From the NCBI GenBank assembly GCA_030696455.1, contig JAUYSH010000006.1, positions 1 to 54,699 of the forward strand: 54,699 nucleotides of DNA, read 5' to 3'. A program made the translations under genes and the position numbers. This DNA is from Elusimicrobiota bacterium. GTDB lineage: Bacteria > Elusimicrobiota > Elusimicrobia > UBA1565 > UBA9628. The notes beneath the pieces are model-generated. The model was given only the letters and a program-made list of their open reading frames with translations, had not been told where the DNA came from and did not search any database. Positions within the stretch are counted from its first letter, which is position 1. Every line of letters starts with the position of its first letter. Of the stretch, positions 2 to 54,678 are shown piece by piece.

Positions 2-82
2 CGGAGTTCGCCCCCTGCGGGGCGCGGATCGGTCCGCGGACGCTCCTCCCTGCCGTATAGGCGGCAGGGACCGCGAACTCCG
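2..82. repeat. Structured three-hairpin repeat, copy 1
   Basis: A 9-bp closing stem (2-10 with 74-82) encloses three hairpins in order: a (CCCC/GGGG, 11-14 with 19-22), b (CGCGGA-TCGG-TCCGCG, 23-38) and c (9 bp, 47-55 with 62-70, loop TATAGG). A GCTCC linker (42-46) lies between b and c. The same layout recurs at 1160-1233 and, diverged, at 2586-2658. It looks like a folded RNA or REP-like DNA element; it is not a recognisable tRNA or riboswitch. The gene at 118 starts just downstream. Confidence 0.75.
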
Positions 83-117
83 TGGAACGAAAGGAGGGGG
101 GTAGTCGTATATCCTGT

Positions 118-543
118 ATGGAGCAGGAGACCCCCGACGCATTCGCGTGGCAGGACTGGGACTGGCGGCCGCTGGCGCGGCTCGTCGTCTGGGTTCTCCT
201 CGCCGCATTCTGGGCCCGCCGGCGGGACGCCATATCGCTGGACCTCCTTCACCAGGTCCTCCGCGAGTTCGTGCTGGGTTGGCTGCTCTCCTTCGGTTGG
301 CTGACCTATATCCAGGCGCTCATCGCGACGAGCGCCTTCCGGCTGGCCCTGGCGTTCGATGCGTCCGCTTACGCCTTATCGGAGCGACTCGTGCGGCCCT
401 TCGCGGGCCGCGCGCCGTTCGCCGCGAACTTCGCCGCGACGTTCGCCATGGAGCTTGTGCTCATCTTTGGGTCGGTCCAGTTTTGGCGCGCGGCTCACAT
501 GGGCGACCGCGTCACGGCCCTCCTTGGGGAGATCCTGCGGTGA
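118..543 (+). CDS. Small membrane protein, unknown
   Basis: 141 aa when read from ATG 118; an in-frame GTG at 82 would add 12 residues. An AAGGAGG tract lies at 91-97, about 20 nt before 118, which is rather far for a ribosome binding site. Hydrophobic stretches (about residues 15-30, 50-80 and 105-130) suggest two or three membrane segments. The stop overlaps the GTG start of the RadC-like gene (GTGA), so the two are probably co-translated. No family is recognised; location beside accessory genes suggests a mobile-element protein. Confidence 0.55.
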   Translation: MEQETPDAFAWQDWDWRPLARLVVWVLLAAFWARRRDAISLDLLHQVLREFVLGWLLSFGWLTYIQALIATSAFRLALAFDASAYALSERLVRPFAGRAPFAANFAATFAMELVLIFGSVQFWRAAHMGDRVTALLGEILR

Positions 544-959
544 TCACGAGCCTGAGGGTCGTACGCTCTGGCCTACCCTCGCGGCGGTTCATTCTTTCGG
601 CCGAGGACGCCTACAGAGTTCTATGTCCGTTGGCGCGCGGCCTCGACCGGGAGCACTTCTGGCGGCTGGACCTCGACTCACGGCGGCGCCTGATCGGATG
701 CGAGCTTGTCTCGGTGGGCAGTCTCGACGCCTCCATCGTGCACCCGCGAGAGGTATTCAAGGGCGCGCTCCTCAACAACGCGCACAGCGTCATGGTCGGG
801 CACAATCATCCTTCCCAGGATACGCGGCCGAGCGCCGAGGATCGGCAAGTCACACGGCAGCTTCAACTTGCCGGCTGCTTGCTCGGCGTCGAACTCGTCG
901 ACCACCTGATCGTAACCGACGACCGCTACTTCAGCTTCAAGAAGGCGCGGCTGCTCTAG
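540..959 (+). CDS. RadC/JAB-domain protein
   Basis: 139 aa from GTG 540, chosen because GTGA overlaps the stop of the preceding gene. The C-terminal half carries a JAMM-type metal motif of the RadC family, with H88, H90, S92 and D101 in the order H-x-H-P-S...S-x-x-D, followed by a helix and the VDHLIVTDDRYFSF end typical of RadC. It lacks the N-terminal helix-hairpin-helix part of chromosomal RadC, so it resembles the short RadC-like proteins of plasmids and integrative elements. Its biochemical role is unsettled in the family. A 10-bp hairpin follows the stop. Confidence 0.8.
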   Translation: MITSLRVVRSGLPSRRFILSAEDAYRVLCPLARGLDREHFWRLDLDSRRRLIGCELVSVGSLDASIVHPREVFKGALLNNAHSVMVGHNHPSQDTRPSAEDRQVTRQLQLAGCLLGVELVDHLIVTDDRYFSFKKARLL

Positions 960-964
960 AAAGA

Positions 965-996
965 GGCGACCCGGCACCGAGTCGTACCGGGTCGCC
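965..996 (+). terminator. Terminator-like hairpin after RadC-like gene
   Basis: Ten-base stem GGCGACCCGG with CCGGGTCGCC around a 12-nt loop, five nucleotides after the stop codon. There is no downstream T-run, so termination may need Rho or the hairpin may act as a 3' stabiliser. Confidence 0.5.
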
Positions 997-1159
997 TGTC
1001 GAACGAAGCCGCTCCTGGGGGAAGGCCTCGCTCGTTCGGAGTGTAGGGCGCGAAGCGCGATCTCGCAAGGCCTAGACTTTAGAATTTGCGGTGGATACTG
1101 CCGCGTCCGTGGACGGCGTGGACAACTCTGCGAGTTGCCCACCCCGCCCACCGACTCTT

Positions 1160-1233
1160 GGATTTCGCCCCTTCGGGCGCGGATCGGTCCGCGTCGCTCC
1201 TCCCTGCCGACGGGGGCAGGGACCGCGAACTCC
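1160..1233. repeat. Structured three-hairpin repeat, copy 2
   Basis: Closely matches copy 1. The closing stem (1160-1167 with 1226-1233) has one mismatch. Hairpin a is GCCC-CTTC-GGGC (1167-1178), b is identical to copy 1 including the TCGG loop (1078+100 to 1193, that is 1178-1193), and c is TCCCTGCC with GGCAGGGA (1201-1208, 1215-1222). The GCTCC linker is at 1196-1200. Changes are concentrated in loops, which argues for selection on the fold. Confidence 0.75.
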
Positions 1234-1281
1234 ACAGTCTCCACCGCTCGGCGGCGGGATTTCTTCTTTGCTTTTTTCACG

Positions 1282-1601
1282 CCTTCCCGTCCCGTCCTCC
1301 GCCTCTTCGTTCTTTTTCATGTCGCCCCTCGCTCTCGGGACTACAGGAGTGAAGGCCTTCTTCTGCGGCATAAACGGTCACCCCTCTCGGAGAAACGGAG
1401 AAATGGCCTAGCCTTGCTAGCTCCACTTTCTCCGTCAGCCCGGCTGCGCCGGGGTCGCCATCTCGGCTGCGCCGAGGGCGATTCTCCGGGGAGCCCCCAT
1501 TTATTCCTCGGCGCACGGCCTTCCTCGTGTCCCTCGCCCTCCGGGTGTGCGGAGGTGCGACATGAAAAAGAACTGCGAGAGCGTCGTACGGGACGGGAAG
1601 G
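1282..1601. repeat. Inverted partial duplication of the sigma-factor 5' end
   Basis: Positions 1309-1330 are the reverse complement of 1552-1573 with one mismatch out of 22, covering the ribosome binding site and first four codons of the sigma-factor gene. Positions 1282-1295 are the exact reverse complement of 1588-1601. The two matching blocks have nearly the same spacing in both arms (13 versus 14 nt), so this is one duplicated and inverted segment of about 50 bp rather than chance. Confidence 0.75.
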
Positions 1602-2164
1602 GAAAAGGCCGGGCTGTGAGGGCGAACAAGGTCGCTGACGCGCTGAAGGACTACCTGGACGGACGGAACTCCGAGGCTTTGAGCTTCGCCTACGGGCTGT
1701 GCCGGGACGCGAACGAGGCGGGAGAGTTGGTCCAGGAGGCGTGTTACCGGGCGCTTAAGGCTCGTGAAAGCCACGACGAGACGAAGGCGGTCAAGAGCTG
1801 GCTCTTCACCATCCTACGCAACGCTTTCATGGACTCGCGGCGGCGCAAGGAGCGACGGGACGGACTGTCCTTGGACTACTGTGGTCGAGGGGGAGACGAG
1901 GCTCCCTTTTACGAGACGCTCGCGGGAGCGGACGAGGACATGCTCGGACGCTTGGAGCGCGCGGAGACGGCGGCCCAGGTGCGCCGGGCGATGGCGAGGC
2001 TTCGCGCGAAGGAGCGGCAAGTGCTGATACTGTGCGACGCGCGGGGGATGGCCTACGCGGAAGCGGCCCGGAGGCTCGGGGTGCGGGAAGGGACGGTGCG
2101 CTCTCGGCTTCATCGGGCGCGGCTGAACCTGAGAAAGACGGCGGGCCGGGTCGGGTTGGTTTAA
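1562..2164 (+). CDS. ECF-type sigma-70 factor
   Basis: 200 aa from ATG 1562, preceded by GGAGG at 1551-1555. Residues about 25-95 form a sigma region 2 (helices with DANEAGELVQEACYRAL, then KSWLFTILRNAFMDSRRR). Residues about 140-195 form region 4 with the helix-turn-helix MAYAEAARRLGVREGTVRSR. There is no region 1 or 3, as expected for group IV (ECF) factors. It would direct RNA polymerase to a small regulon. No anti-sigma gene is adjacent; the next gene is a DUF6573 protein 16 nt downstream, likely in the same transcript. Confidence 0.88.
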   Translation: MKKNCESVVRDGKGKGRAVRANKVADALKDYLDGRNSEALSFAYGLCRDANEAGELVQEACYRALKARESHDETKAVKSWLFTILRNAFMDSRRRKERRDGLSLDYCGRGGDEAPFYETLAGADEDMLGRLERAETAAQVRRAMARLRAKERQVLILCDARGMAYAEAARRLGVREGTVRSRLHRARLNLRKTAGRVGLV

Positions 2165-2180
2165 AACAGGAGACCTGAAC

Positions 2181-2576
2181 ATGGAAAACGATACGAGGTT
2201 GGAGGGGTTTGAGGTTATCCACGCTTACACTCGGGCACAGGCCATCGAGGACGGCGTCCTGGTGGACGTGAGCGACCTGGCGCGGGAGGCGGGCTTCCGC
2301 TTTCCCGTCGCGGTGACGCAGGGCGTTTGGGCGGTCTTGAACCCGACGAAGGAATTGGAAGCGGCAGGCCAGGACATGGCCGGTCGGGCGTGGGACATGC
2401 TGACCATACTGAGGTACGGCATCCGGAGCGCGTCGCGGACGGATGAGGTCCGATTCGCTCCGCTGTTTATGCGCGAGCCCGGCCAGAAGGCCGAGCCCGT
2501 CGAGATGCGGGCCAAGTGCGGCCCCGGCGACGATGCCGAGCCCGTCATCACGGTGATGCTCAAGGGCGAAGATTGA
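2181..2576 (+). CDS. DUF6573 family protein
   Basis: 131 aa, ATG 2181 with AGGAG upstream. The N-terminal block FEVIHAYTRAQAIEDGVLVDVSDLA..AGF..PVAVTQGVW is the signature I associate with DUF6573 proteins, which are common on plasmids and integrative elements and have no known activity. It lies 16 nt after the sigma factor and is followed by repeat copy 3. The family name is from recall of the motif; function is unknown. Confidence 0.7.
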   Translation: MENDTRLEGFEVIHAYTRAQAIEDGVLVDVSDLAREAGFRFPVAVTQGVWAVLNPTKELEAAGQDMAGRAWDMLTILRYGIRSASRTDEVRFAPLFMREPGQKAEPVEMRAKCGPGDDAEPVITVMLKGED

Positions 2577-2585
2577 CGAGGCGCC

Positions 2586-2658
2586 GCTCCCGCGCAAGCG
2601 GGGGCGGCCGCCTCGGCGGGTCGGTCCGCAGCCGCTCCACCTCGGCTGGCGCCGAGGT
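2586..2658. repeat. Structured three-hairpin repeat, diverged copy 3
   Basis: The order and the linker are kept while stem sequences change. Hairpin a is an 8-pair stem with a GCAA loop (2586-2593 with 2598-2605). Hairpin b is GCGGG-TCGG-TCCGC (2616-2629), with the A-T pair of copies 1 and 2 replaced by G-T. The GCTCC linker is at 2634-2638. Hairpin c is ACCTCGGC with GCCGAGGT (2639-2646, 2651-2658), wholly different in sequence from copies 1 and 2 but still perfectly paired. No clear closing stem was found. Confidence 0.6.
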
Positions 2659-2744
2659 CCAACGATACGTCGCACTACGCATAAGAATTGATCGTAGGAC
2701 GGAGTGATGCGCACGCCATTCAGCTGAACATCACAGCGCGCAGT

Positions 2745-9288: not shown

Positions 9289-9335
9289 GCAAGTTAGAAG
9301 TCGAGTTGAGCCGACAATTTGAACGTGCGCGGCGC
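9289..9335 (-). repeat. 3' end of TonB receptor gene (direct repeat, right copy)
   Basis: This is the intact copy of the 47-nt repeat also found at 7648-7694. It includes the last codons and stop of the receptor gene. The interval between the copies, 7695-9288, is exactly the mercury cassette, with no recombinase inside. Confidence 0.8.
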
Positions 9336-11447
9336 CCCGAGATGAAGATAGCCGTCGCCGAAGTATTCGCCGACGTCCTTCCAGTAGACCGTGTCGAGGA
9401 CGTTTTCGATCCGGAAGCGCCAAACCACCTTGACGGGACCGGCGCGCCGCGCGCAGCGGACACCTAGGTCGAAGCGGTTGTAGGCGGGGACGGTCAGCGC
9501 GTTGTCGCGCCGGGCGTATTTTTCCGAGACGCGTGCCCAGGAGCCGTTGAGCGCCGCTCCCGGCAGGCCCGGAATGCTCCAATCGAGCGTTACCTGACTT
9601 CGAAGCCGCGGCACGTTCAGAGGCGCTTTGCCGTCGAAGGCCGCCACCCCGGTGCCGTATTGCCGCGCGTGGAGCAAGGTCGCGCCGGCGACGACGCGCA
9701 GGCGGTCGGCGACGCGGCCGACGGCCGCGATCTCCAGGCCGCTGTGCCGGACGATTCCGTGCTGGACGAAAACGTTGTCGGGACCGGTGAACTCGTAGGG
9801 CTTCCAGATGTGAAACAGCGCCGCCGTCGCCAATAGCCGCGCCGAGAGGTCGCTTTTGACCCCGAGCTCGACCTGCCGGGAGACCTTGGGGTCCAGCGTC
9901 CGCCCCGCGTTCGCGGCGGTGACGCCCGCGGTGCCGCCGAGCTCCAGGCCCTGGCTGAAGGCGGCATATCCCATCAAGCCGTCCCGGGGAGTGAAGGTCA
10001 GGGCCAACTGCGGCGACAGGAACGTGCGGCGAAAGCTCGAGGCGGGGGCGCCGTCCAGTTTGCGGAAGCGGTCGTCCGAGACGGCGCTCGCGCGCAGGCC
10101 GGCCTGCAGCTTCCAGCGGGAAGACCAGGAGATCGAGTCCTGGACGAACAACGCTTGCTCCGTGTAGTCCTGGTTGCGATGAACGACGCCCGTCGCGTTG
10201 GGCGACGGCGCGAAGATCGAGGGGCGAGGCGCATAGATATTGTCGGTGCCGACGAAATCGTAGACCTCCTGGCCGAGAGCGACCGTGCGATCGAAGCGCG
10301 ACAGGCCGACCGTCGCGTCATGGCGGACGGTGCCCCAGTCGCGGCCCCCGCTCAAAACGGCCCGGGCCTGCGTCACCGTGCGGATTTCGCCCGAGCTGCG
10401 GTAGTCGTAAAGGTCGTAATCGCCGTTGGCGCAGAAGGTGTTCAGGTAGACGGGGCCGCTGGAGCAGCCATAGGGAAACGCGGCCTTGTCCTCGGAGGCG
10501 ACGCGGTTGCGGTTGACCGCGGCCTCGAAGCGCCAGTCATCGCCGGCCTCGTACTGGAGCCGCGCGCCCATGTTGGAAGCTTCGATCACGACCGGCTCGC
10601 TCCACGGCTGGTTGTTGAGCATCGTCTCCGGCCGGACTCCGGCCGGCAGCGCGGTTCCGCCCAGGGGCTGGTAGCCGGGCACGGATAACTGGTTCTTTTT
10701 CTGCCAGTCCGCGTCGAGCGCGAAAAGCGCGTTCTCGCCGAGCCGCCAGTCCAGGGCCGCGCTTAAAAATTCGCGCCGTCCGACCGCCTCCTTGACGTAC
10801 GGGAGAAGCGACTCGCGGGCCGCGTTGAAGCGGTAGCCGAAGCGCCCGCCGTCGAAGCGGCCGCCCAGGTCCGCGTGGGCGTATCGCGTGCCGCGATCGC
10901 TCAACTCCAGCGTGACCCGGCGCGTCGGCGCGTCCGTCGGCCGCTTGACGACGTAGTTGACCGCACCGCCCGGAGCCGCCAGCCCCGCCTCGAAGCCCGC
11001 GACGCCCTTGAGAATCTCGACCCGCTCCTTGTTCTCCAGAGGCATGCTGGACTCGTTGGCGATGGTCAGGCCGTCGCGCTTGTACCCGCTCGCGCCGTCG
11101 AGCGTGAATCCGCGTATCGACAAGGCCTCGTAATAGCCGAGCGGGGCGTAGTTTTCGCCGACGGACGCGTCGTTCCCGATGATTCCGGCGACGCCGCGCG
11201 CGCCCTGGTCGTCCATCAAGCTCCTCGGGACGACGGTCACCGACGCGGGGGTCTCGAGGAGCGGCCGCCCCGTCAGACCCAGCCGCTCGCGCGCGACCCC
11301 GTAGTCGTCCGGGACACGAGGCGCGGTCACGACGACCGGAGCGCGCGGCGGCGAGGGGAGTTCTTCCGCCCGCGAAGGGGCGAGGGCGCTCAGCGCGTGA
11401 GCGAGGCAAAGGCCGGTGACGAGCGTTCGGCGGGCTTTAGCGGGCAT
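9294..11447 (-). CDS. TonB-dependent outer-membrane receptor, thiamine-regulated
   Basis: 717 aa from ATG 11447, which follows AAAGGAG. A signal peptide (MPAKARRTLVTGLCLAHALSA) is followed by the plug domain (RPLLETPASVTVVPRSLMDDQG, then IRGFTLDG and GGAVNYVVKRP) and a beta-barrel ending in a terminal Phe (SAQLDF). Sequence style is that of siderophore receptors such as FhuE/FpvA. However, the leader contains a TPP riboswitch, so the substrate is more likely thiamine or a thiamine-related compound, as proposed for other THI-box-controlled TonB receptors. No inner-membrane permease or tonB is nearby. Confidence 0.9.
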   Translation of the reverse strand: MPAKARRTLVTGLCLAHALSALAPSRAEELPSPPRAPVVVTAPRVPDDYGVARERLGLTGRPLLETPASVTVVPRSLMDDQGARGVAGIIGNDASVGENYAPLGYYEALSIRGFTLDGASGYKRDGLTIANESSMPLENKERVEILKGVAGFEAGLAAPGGAVNYVVKRPTDAPTRRVTLELSDRGTRYAHADLGGRFDGGRFGYRFNAARESLLPYVKEAVGRREFLSAALDWRLGENALFALDADWQKKNQLSVPGYQPLGGTALPAGVRPETMLNNQPWSEPVVIEASNMGARLQYEAGDDWRFEAAVNRNRVASEDKAAFPYGCSSGPVYLNTFCANGDYDLYDYRSSGEIRTVTQARAVLSGGRDWGTVRHDATVGLSRFDRTVALGQEVYDFVGTDNIYAPRPSIFAPSPNATGVVHRNQDYTEQALFVQDSISWSSRWKLQAGLRASAVSDDRFRKLDGAPASSFRRTFLSPQLALTFTPRDGLMGYAAFSQGLELGGTAGVTAANAGRTLDPKVSRQVELGVKSDLSARLLATAALFHIWKPYEFTGPDNVFVQHGIVRHSGLEIAAVGRVADRLRVVAGATLLHARQYGTGVAAFDGKAPLNVPRLRSQVTLDWSIPGLPGAALNGSWARVSEKYARRDNALTVPAYNRFDLGVRCARRAGPVKVVWRFRIENVLDTVYWKDVGEYFGDGYLHLGAPRTFKLSAQLDF

Positions 11448-11448
11448 C

Positions 11449-11479
11449 GTTTGCTCCTTTAGGCAACGCGGGAGCAAAC
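11449..11479 (-). promoter_or_regulatory. SD-sequestering hairpin of the riboswitch
   Basis: GTTTGCTCC (minus strand, 11479-11471) pairs perfectly with GGAGCAAAC (11457-11449), loop 13 nt. The right arm contains the GGAG of the receptor's ribosome binding site and ends one base before the ATG. This is the likely expression platform: pairing hides the start region when TPP is bound, giving translational control. Confidence 0.75.
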
Positions 11480-11500
11480 AAAGCGGGCGGCGACTTTGCG

Positions 11501-11580
11501 CTTCCCTGCGCTGGCATTATCCAGATCAGGTTCGAAGGGTTTTTCTCACCCGAAACTCGCTGGTTTCAGGACCCCTAGCG
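11501..11580 (-). promoter_or_regulatory. TPP (THI-box) riboswitch
   Basis: Read on the minus strand the element runs from AGGGGT (11576-11571) through GGGTGAGA to the highly conserved core CCTGATCTGGATAATGCC (within 11530-11510) and GCGCAGGGAAG. These are the two conserved halves of the thiamine pyrophosphate aptamer, with a variable stem between them. It sits about 55 nt before the receptor start, with the sequestering hairpin in between. Confidence 0.93.
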
Positions 11581-11586
11581 GGAGGA

Positions 11587-28097: not shown

Positions 28098-29060
28098 ATG
28101 AACGAATCATCACTGCTGGACGGGGCTCACGACCATACTTTCGGGCTGGACCGGGCCATGTCCGGAGAGAAGCGCACGCTCGCCGTCATCTGGATCACCG
28201 CCGCGATGATGGTCGTCGAGATCGCCGCAGGGCTTTATTCCGGGTCGATGGCGCTTCTCGCCGATGGACTGCACATGGGATCGCACGCTTCCGCGCTGGC
28301 CATCTCAGCGTTCGCATATCTCTATACCCGCCGCCACGCGCGGGACGCGCGCTTCAGCTTCGGGACCGGCAAGATGAACTCCCTGGCGGCCTTCGCCAGC
28401 GCCGTCCTGCTTGCCGCCTTCGCCGCGGTCATGGCCTGGGAAAGCGCCAAGAGATGCGTTGCGCCCGTTCCGATCAAATTCAATCAAGCGATCCTCATCG
28501 CGCTGCTGGGTCTGGCGGTCAACGGCGCGTGCTTGCTGATCTTGGGCGGGGACGGTCATGATCATGACGCCGATGATCACGATGAACATGCCCATGCCCA
28601 GGGCCATCATCACGGCGAAAGAACCGACCACAATCTCTGGTCGGCCTATGTGCACGTCTTGGCCGACGCCCTGACCTCGGTCCTGGCGATCGCCGCGTTG
28701 ATGGTGGGAAAATACTTTCACTTGACCTGGCCCGATCCGTTCATCGGCATGTTGGGCGCCGTCCTCGTTTCGCGATGGGCCTGGCAGCTGATTCGCGCCT
28801 CCAGCCGCGTGCTGCTGGACATGCAGGCGCCCGAGAGCGTCCGCGACGCCGTGCGAAGCGCCGTCGAGCGGCAGGACGACTGCCGGGTCAGCGACCTGCA
28901 CGTTTGGGCCGTCGGGCCGAACATATTCGCGGCCGAGATCGGCATCCTCGCGTCCGAGCCCAAAGATCCGGACGAGTACAGGAAATTGCTCCCGCGTGGC
29001 TTGAACCTCGTCCATGTCACCTGCGAAGTGAGACGCCGCCCCTTGGAAAGGCGGGCCTAA
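28098..29060 (+). CDS. dmeF: Cation diffusion facilitator, DmeF-like (Co/Ni)
   Basis: 320 aa, ATG 28098. Six membrane helices with the CDF metal site residues (LLADGLHMGSHASAL in TM2; NLWSAYVHVLADALTSVL in TM5), a His-rich cytoplasmic loop (GDGHDHDADDHDEHAHAQ and HHHGER) and a C-terminal ferredoxin-like domain. The LHMGSHASALAISAFAY and FSFGTGKMNSLAAFASA signatures are those of the DmeF Co/Ni group rather than CzcD. It exports cytoplasmic divalent metal by proton antiport. Last gene of block B. Confidence 0.9.
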   Translation: MNESSLLDGAHDHTFGLDRAMSGEKRTLAVIWITAAMMVVEIAAGLYSGSMALLADGLHMGSHASALAISAFAYLYTRRHARDARFSFGTGKMNSLAAFASAVLLAAFAAVMAWESAKRCVAPVPIKFNQAILIALLGLAVNGACLLILGGDGHDHDADDHDEHAHAQGHHHGERTDHNLWSAYVHVLADALTSVLAIAALMVGKYFHLTWPDPFIGMLGAVLVSRWAWQLIRASSRVLLDMQAPESVRDAVRSAVERQDDCRVSDLHVWAVGPNIFAAEIGILASEPKDPDEYRKLLPRGLNLVHVTCEVRRRPLERRA

Positions 29061-29113
29061 AAACGTGGGATCGGGAGTTCACGCGCGATGCTGGGTCGAA
29101 CGCGGCCAGGAAT

Positions 29114-29335
29114 CTAGCGCGTGAAGAAATCGAGCGATTTCCCATAGAGGCGAGCGAACGCCTCCAATTCCACCACGTCGAGACGATGGTCGCCCGATTC
29201 GCAGCGGGAAACATATGACTGCTGCTTGCGGAGCTTCTTGGCGGCGTCCACTTGCTTGAACCCGGCCTCGACGCGCGCTTGACGCAGCCGCGCGACGATG
29301 GTCCTGTGCCGCCTTGAATAGATGGTTTTCTGCAT
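29114..29335 (-). CDS. XRE-family helix-turn-helix regulator
   Basis: 73 aa, essentially a single Cro/CI helix-turn-helix domain: VARLRQARVEAGFKQVDAAKKL, RKQQSYVSRCESGDHRLDVVELEAFARLYG. It starts 86 bp from the divergent response-regulator gene. A local repressor is likely; its target cannot be read. Confidence 0.88.
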   Translation of the reverse strand: MQKTIYSRRHRTIVARLRQARVEAGFKQVDAAKKLRKQQSYVSRCESGDHRLDVVELEAFARLYGKSLDFFTR

Positions 29336-30348: not shown

Positions 30349-31020
30349 ATGAGGCCAATGCAATTGTTGTTCGCCGTCGCTTTGGGGATGGCGCTCGCCG
30401 TTCCGGCGGCGGCGAACGAGGACCATCACGGTCACGAAGCGCCTGAAGCCGCCCCGACCGTCTCCACGCAAGCCGCCGTAGTACCGGCTCGTCCGGCCGT
30501 CGGAGAATGGACGGTTCTGCGCATGCATCTCACGCAGCCCGAATATTGGCATGTCCTGATCAATCCGTTCCCTGTAATAGGGATGGCGCTTGCCGCACCC
30601 CTTCTGCTGTTCGGGCTGGCGGTGCGCAGCCGCGGGGCGAAGGAGGCGGGCCTTGTCCTGATCATGCTGACCGCGCTCGTGACGTTGGCGACGGTCAAGG
30701 TCGGGCAGACGGCGTACGACCGGGCCTATAACAGGATCGAGCTCGAGTCCCAGCAATGGCTCGATGTCCACATGGAGCGCGCCGAGGGCGCGCAGTGGGC
30801 GTTTTATCTGACGGGCCTTCTCGCCGCGCTCGCCCTGGTGATGAGCCGGCGCGATATCGACTGGGAGCGACGCGCGACGCTCGGGGCGTTGTCGGGCGCG
30901 CTGCTCTGCTCCGCGCTCGGCGGCCGGATCGCGCACGCCGGCGGCCAGGTTCGGCATTCGGAGTTCCGCATGGGCCCGCCCGAGAGCAACGCCATGCCGA
31001 TGGGATCGCATCGGCATTAG
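30349..31020 (+). CDS. Exported/membrane protein, DUF2231-like
   Basis: 223 aa, ATG 30349 with CAGGAG upstream. Signal peptide (ending AANEDHHGHE, a small His cluster), about four membrane helices, and a C-terminus GGRIAHAGGQVRHSEFRMG. The G..AHAGGQVRH ending resembles the GGELVFTHGMGV end of the DUF2231 protein at 34385. Function unknown; a membrane partner of the copper proteins of this block is possible. Confidence 0.6.
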   Translation: MRPMQLLFAVALGMALAVPAAANEDHHGHEAPEAAPTVSTQAAVVPARPAVGEWTVLRMHLTQPEYWHVLINPFPVIGMALAAPLLLFGLAVRSRGAKEAGLVLIMLTALVTLATVKVGQTAYDRAYNRIELESQQWLDVHMERAEGAQWAFYLTGLLAALALVMSRRDIDWERRATLGALSGALLCSALGGRIAHAGGQVRHSEFRMGPPESNAMPMGSHRH

Positions 31021-54494: not shown

Positions 54495-54678
54495 GACTTT
54501 AGTCCTTTCCGAAGGTCCTATTCCCGATGGGACCAACGGCCCTGGAGACTTAAAGCCCGGCACCCTACACTGAGAATGTCCCATTAGCCTGTGTAGCCTG
54601 GGGGATTGGCCCCGGGGTATCCACGATCCCGCCTCAACGGGGTCCCGCCACGGGAAACGACTAACACTCGTTTCCCGT
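54495..54678 (+). ncRNA. Possible structured RNA or 5' leader
   Basis: After the last gene there is a palindrome GGACTTTAGTCC (54495-54506), a second inverted pair GGTCC/GGGACC (about 54513-54533), a TACACT box (54566-54571) and a string of GC stems that ends in the terminator 54650-54684. Transcription from near 54579 would give an RNA of about 100 nt. No coding frame is seen in 54431-54699. Confidence 0.35.

Follow-up and report, generated by a model that had tools for sequence, protein, structure and literature searches.

Covarying three-hairpin elements and a giant hairpin leader in small islands of Elusimicrobiota genomes: candidate folded-DNA sites of a non-autonomous mobile unit

Organization of the locus

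The window, that is, the whole stretch of 54,699 nucleotides that was analysed, belongs to an Elusimicrobiota groundwater genome and carries at its left end part of a small island, the features of which are compiled in Table 1. The full island has the order RadC, element, membrane protein with RadC, element, giant hairpin, ECF sigma factor, DUF6573 protein and last element. In the related genome G013, four elements stand in tandem downstream of a tRNA-Ala gene (locus L055): unit 1 comprises element A, a giant hairpin, RadC and a small ORF, unit 2 comprises element 1, the membrane protein and RadC, and unit 3 comprises element 2, a giant hairpin, the ECF sigma factor and DUF6573, followed by element 3. 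The window contains elements 1 to 3 of an island of this type. Because the host's own element A with its giant hairpin forms the end of another contig (C19), the island is probably divided over C19 and the contig of the window. The gene order is kept in other genomes, which counts against free shuffling of cassettes. No recombinase gene was found in the islands read, and a Pfam search with the membrane-like protein gave no match. Elsewhere in the window, a 2dG-II purine riboswitch aptamer (Rfam RF03165) occupies the right end (54586-54656), and a TPP riboswitch (11486-11586, minus strand) lies upstream of the minus-strand ORF 9294-11477.

Table 1. Positions of the island features within the window
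Feature	Position	Strand	Basis or remark
Element copy 1 (type 1)	2..82	+	Folds, family alignment, covariation
Parts of copy 1	P1 2-11/73-82; P2 12-22; P3 23-38 (loop TCGG 29-32); linker 39-46 with GCTCC at its end; P4 47-70; CC 71-72
Membrane-like protein, MEQETPDAFA...	118..543	+	ORF; conserved in G013 and other relatives
RadC-like JAB-domain protein, the island's second RadC	540..959	+	PF04002, E 1.5e-40
Likely outer stem P0 around copy 2	1088-1100 GCGGTGGATACTG with 1235-1247 CAGTCTCCACCGC	+	By inspection
Element copy 2 (type 2)	1159..1234	+	Folds, alignment, covariation
Giant hairpin leader, about 370 nt	1237..1607	+	RNA fold, DNA fold, 25 related leaders
ECF sigma factor	1562..2164	+	Sigma70_r2 and r4_2; first codons within hairpin arm
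DUF6573 protein	2181..2576	+	PF20213, E 1.2e-24
Element copy 3 (type 3)	2577..2660	+	Boundary comparison, folds; right terminus of the island
Parts of copy 3	hairpin a and outer stem 2577-2615; P3 about 2616-2630; GCTCC 2634-2638; P4 2639-2658; CC 2659-2660		Unrelated flank beyond

The motif TCGGTCCGC-N-GCTCC has exact plus-strand matches at 29, 1184 and 2621, where shuffled sequences lead one to expect 0.05, and the three copies named in the original prediction lie where it had placed them. Copies 1 and 2, described there as sharing much sequence, are 85% identical. Copy 3, assigned to 2586-2658, is present but extends further in both directions, and its hairpin a is enclosed by an additional outer stem; the claim that copy 3 keeps the same pairing holds less well, in that hairpin b is absent from its minimum-energy fold, and it is comparison that suggests a paired b. 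Relative to shuffled sequences, the z scores of copies 1, 2 and 3 are -4.2, -2.3 and -4.1 for the RNA fold and -5.0, -2.3 and -4.9 for the plus-strand DNA fold, copy 2 being the weakest of the three in both. Copy 2 is part of a larger structure, comprising the likely outer stem P0, with one mismatch in the window and perfect in G001 (GCGGTGGATAC / GTATCCACCGC), and the giant hairpin leader. What the earlier reading of the sequence had missed is that the island forms a unit, that it ends precisely at copy 3 on the right, and that a giant hairpin lies ahead of the sigma gene.

Only four intact copies occur in the 4.0 Mb host genome, three of them in the window and one at C19:19390, all in one type of locus. 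A transposable REP-like element, as the original prediction had proposed among other readings, fits this distribution poorly, and membership of the REP/RAYT class was rejected on these grounds; the genome has five Y1_Tnp genes, all on contigs without elements.

Fold, covariation and range of the element family

About 35 distinct elements were found across the related genomes searched, mostly in the Elusimicrobiota family of the host, with one set in G055, a member of a sister family of the same order. The family shares a four-way fold, consisting of the closing stem P1, P2, P3, a GNTCC linker, P4 and CC. The TCGG loop and the GCTCC linker, predicted to be invariant, are so in the three copies of the window, but across the family the P3 loop is usually NCGN and the second linker base varies.

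The covariation of both P1 and P4 exceeds background: none of 5,000 shuffles was as good as the observed pairing, either for P1 (16 sequences; 16 further pair types over nine pairs, with 90% of cells paired) or for P4 (20 sequences; 11 further pair types), figures that include a slight lean toward pairing owing to the alignment of the strands by hand from the junctions. Unrelated P1 sequences with the pairing kept are exemplified by GGAGTTCGC/GCGAACTCC, TGAATTGCG/CGCAATTCA, GACAACGC/GCGTTG and AGAATTTGCC/GGTAAATTCT. Loop base four and linker base two are partners in most variants, with each of the four Watson-Crick combinations represented, and three cases deviate (permutation p 0.0003; 0.014 once relatives are collapsed), a pattern suggestive of a tertiary pair. 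A likeness of P3 and the linker to the T-arm and 3' end of tRNA was also considered, and is likely coincidental.

A search of positions 1-2760 against Rfam gave no match to an element at the gathering score, and at a lax threshold the best match (E 0.055) stayed far under its own threshold. The element family and the combined architecture were not found described, while the kinds of thing they resemble are known. The earlier expectation of a selected, covarying structure near mobile genes is supported. In G021 (L060-L064), the first search pattern also picked up GGTCCGCAAAGCTCC repeats, five identical copies located at contig ends, which lack the fold and are probably an insertion sequence end.

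Ends of the island

Islands sit at several different chromosomal places, the window and G013 having a common locus and the islands of G026 and G005 both adjoining a formamidopyrimidine-DNA glycosylase gene. At no fewer than eight loci, homology between islands ends just past the last element, directly after GGTCC: inter-locus alignments end 41-51 nt into a query made of element plus flank, three further loci agree, and beyond element 3 the resemblance between loci is lost at the first base past GGTCC or within a few bases of it. The left ends, on the other hand, are ragged and differ between loci. At L129 the left end falls inside RadC, adjoining a BRO-family gene, and at L181 in mid-element; at L055, L069 and L123 it coincides with the start of element A, and at L122 (past the element), L124 and L126 (both in the hairpin flank) it lies within the hairpin module. 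Such a combination of a precise and a ragged end is the pattern of one-ended single-strand processing. Searches with three flanks recovered no empty site, the flanks being unshared or other insertions having intervened; insertion of the island is therefore inferred, and transposition putative. Two neighbours of islands deserve mention. In G026, three consecutive integrase-like genes, two of them confirmed members of the phage integrase family, lie downstream of the sigma/DUF6573 unit (L125:8369-11620) and resemble a recombinase-in-trio element. In G005, an 89-bp sequence beside the island (L067:10100-10188), identical in three other contigs of that genome, is probably an insertion sequence end.

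A recombination site, one of the readings offered by the original prediction, is supported as a possible one, as is a single-stranded DNA structure. An integron-like version of the former, in which a tyrosine recombinase would use the elements as attachment or cassette sites, is very improbable. The host genome has three integron integrases, the elements are in tandem, in the same orientation and one per operon, and the G013 island follows a tRNA gene, all of which speaks for such sites; set against this are elements without attC boxes, an attC-type site that lies instead downstream of one of the integrases, a gene order fixed across genomes, and islands without an integrase.

The giant hairpin leader

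A giant hairpin separates element 2 from the sigma gene; its left arm (about 1282-1330) is antisense to 1552-1601, a segment with the ribosome site, the ATG at 1562 and the first codons. The RNA fold of the hairpin has a z score of -7.0 (window positions 1157-1625) and of -8.0 in G013, and the template-strand DNA fold reaches -9.7. The tip is forked, with the motifs GGCATAAACGGTCA at 1367 and CCATTTATTCCTCG at 1497; the related leaders vary hardly at all in the fork motifs GGCATAAACGG and CCATTTATTCC. In all 19 of the 19 leaders having a recognisable ribosome site, 15-19 of the 20 nucleotides around the ATG are paired with the upstream arm. A class-wide scan found the leader motif in 13 of 235 genomes, all of them from the host family except G055, and in G013 and G003 leaders lie downstream of tRNA-Ala. 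No promoter of the sigma-70 type was found in positions 1-2760, the hairpin included, and the sigma-70 consensus may not be that of the host. A plasmid collection held no DNA match to the leader; a viral collection gave one match to the hairpin motif, which fell within a long phage reading frame encoded on the opposite strand and was rated as chance.

Folding as DNA or as RNA

Structural RNAs tolerate G.U pairs and not A.C. Along these lines, the ratio of G.T to A.C was 8:1 in 19 tRNAs of the same loci (acceptor and T stems), 5:11 in P1 and P4 of the elements, and, in the giant hairpin, 112:111 overall and 7:14 at isolated mismatches (Fisher p versus tRNA 0.01, 0.04 and 0.01, respectively), counts that are small and not phylogenetically independent, with a tRNA control chosen for its canonical pairing. 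The elements and the giant hairpin thus lack the G.U excess of RNA, and folding at the level of DNA is favoured; the ratios are indications against a purely RNA role and fit DNA hairpins. At the isolated mismatches of both structures A.C outnumbers G.T, which would point to the template strand, and this is not significant.

The RNA alternative in the original prediction is weakened accordingly by these ratios. In its fuller form, the elements would be cis-regulatory or terminator RNAs of the island operons and the giant hairpin a translational lock. This can draw on the stable RNA folds, on the position 5' or 3' of genes and on the masked ribosome site, and the lock could coexist with a role of the DNA. 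It is distinctly unlikely in view of the missing G.U excess and of the Rfam search, lax threshold included; moreover, no terminator-like T-tract directly follows the copies, and a role in transcription leaves the sharp recombination boundary unexplained.

Link to conjugation

On contig G003:C74 (33.8 kb), genes for a TrwC relaxase with helicase, a VirB4/TraC-like ATPase, a coupling protein, ParA, ParB and DUF932 are accompanied by three giant hairpins, one of which precedes a sigma factor with DUF6573 downstream, this unit standing ahead of TrwC; on G019:C273 the order is hairpin, sigma factor, DUF6573, TrwC. Leaders and genes of both contigs are oriented toward TrwC, an orientation that fits a leading region in which the template is the transferred strand, the nic region (ATGCACCATTG) being a candidate only. 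DUF6573 homologues were found in 257 plasmid records, 151 of them typed conjugative. The three-hairpin element was found on neither of these two contigs, and the candidate nic region is unlike it; the idea that the last element is the oriT of TrwC (MobF) plasmids was rejected, the element being absent before TrwC. In itself, G003:C74 (L174:1-20000 and L175:1-13763) resembles a conjugative plasmid of Elusimicrobiota and carries a MobF relaxase, a T4SS and ParAB. Another repeat, of about 390 bp, occurs on it at 28742-29134, at 30378-30768 and, incompletely, at the contig end; each copy lies between operons.

In the leading region of F, single-stranded promoters that drive early genes are established (PMC9849209; PMC11541004). 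The elements could be single-stranded-DNA signals at the operon boundaries of leading regions, either priming sites (ssi, or G4-type with three hairpins) or companions of a single-strand promoter, the islands being decayed leading regions and the elements no independent termini. Elements do flank each operon, hairpin, sigma factor and DUF6573 are common to the conjugative contigs and point to the relaxase, leaders follow tRNA-Ala in two genomes, and the mismatch pattern is of the DNA type. This explanation is nevertheless somewhat unlikely, as the element is missing from the two leader-bearing relaxase contigs, and the stop of homology just past the last element at many loci is left unexplained.

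Proposed explanation

We think that the elements serve a non-autonomous mobile island as termini or processing sites. In its specific form, put forward tentatively and at rather less than even confidence, the proposal is that they are folded-DNA sites which separate and end a small island with leading-region cargo (RadC, ECF sigma factor, DUF6573). A single-strand-processing enzyme acting in trans, such as an HUH relaxase or transposase, would use the fold. The precise end would be fixed by the last element, and at the opposite end copying or transfer would come to an imprecise halt, giving ends that resemble those of one-ended rolling-circle transposition or T-strand integration. The giant hairpin may act as a promoter when the template strand is single-stranded, in the manner of Frpo, whereas transcription begun upstream, on double-stranded DNA, would yield an RNA with both arms that masks its own start codon, such that the island genes would be made mainly during entry of the DNA. 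The complete scheme, a switch for single strands only, in which the hairpin of the entering strand fires in the right arm, read-through hides the start codon, and elements used in trans as termini spread the sigma-bearing islands, is unlikely as a whole.

If correct, single-strand gene expression in conjugation would extend to a phylum in which hardly any mobile elements are described, a built-in off switch would be suggested by the start codon masked in read-through transcripts, and leading-region modules would spread as small islands with structured DNA ends. The descriptive part alone would still provide a covarying family of elements that is unlisted and has a defined host range.

Comparison with known systems

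REP/RAYT sequences are likewise short, GC-rich palindromes outside genes, but the elements described here are few and bound to one type of locus, have a larger four-way fold, and have no RAYT adjacent. Like integron attC sites, they are imperfectly palindromic and stand in tandem in one orientation, one per operon; unlike them, they occur in a fixed gene order and lack, by inspection of the alignment, the consensus boxes RYYYAAC / GTTRRRY, on which an assignment as attC was rejected. The integron integrases are on other contigs than the elements (none on C131). All three are full-length (C54:3554-4495, C117:52821-53759 and C40:46507-47445; TIGR02249, 422-433 bits), and one is followed by toxin-antitoxin-like small genes.

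With the HUH-processed ends of IS200/IS605, IS91/ISCR and T-DNA borders the island shares hairpin-bearing ends, a common orientation, and one precise and one ragged end; it differs in having neither transposase nor relaxase, in the P1-P4 four-way fold, and in its several internal copies. G4-type primase sites, where three hairpins are recognised on single-stranded DNA, are a tentative parallel to the elements, by description.

The Frpo/ssi systems of F and ColIb-P9 are to be compared with the giant hairpin leader, and not with the three-hairpin element. The leader differs from them in having no recognisable -35/-10 boxes, in arms that cover the ribosome site and first codons, in its forked tip with conserved motifs, and in the lack of a detectable sequence match in the plasmid collection. 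In common with them, it is a highly stable single-strand hairpin, repeated, and located upstream of early genes in a conjugative region of the leading type, where the genes point to the side of the relaxase or oriT.
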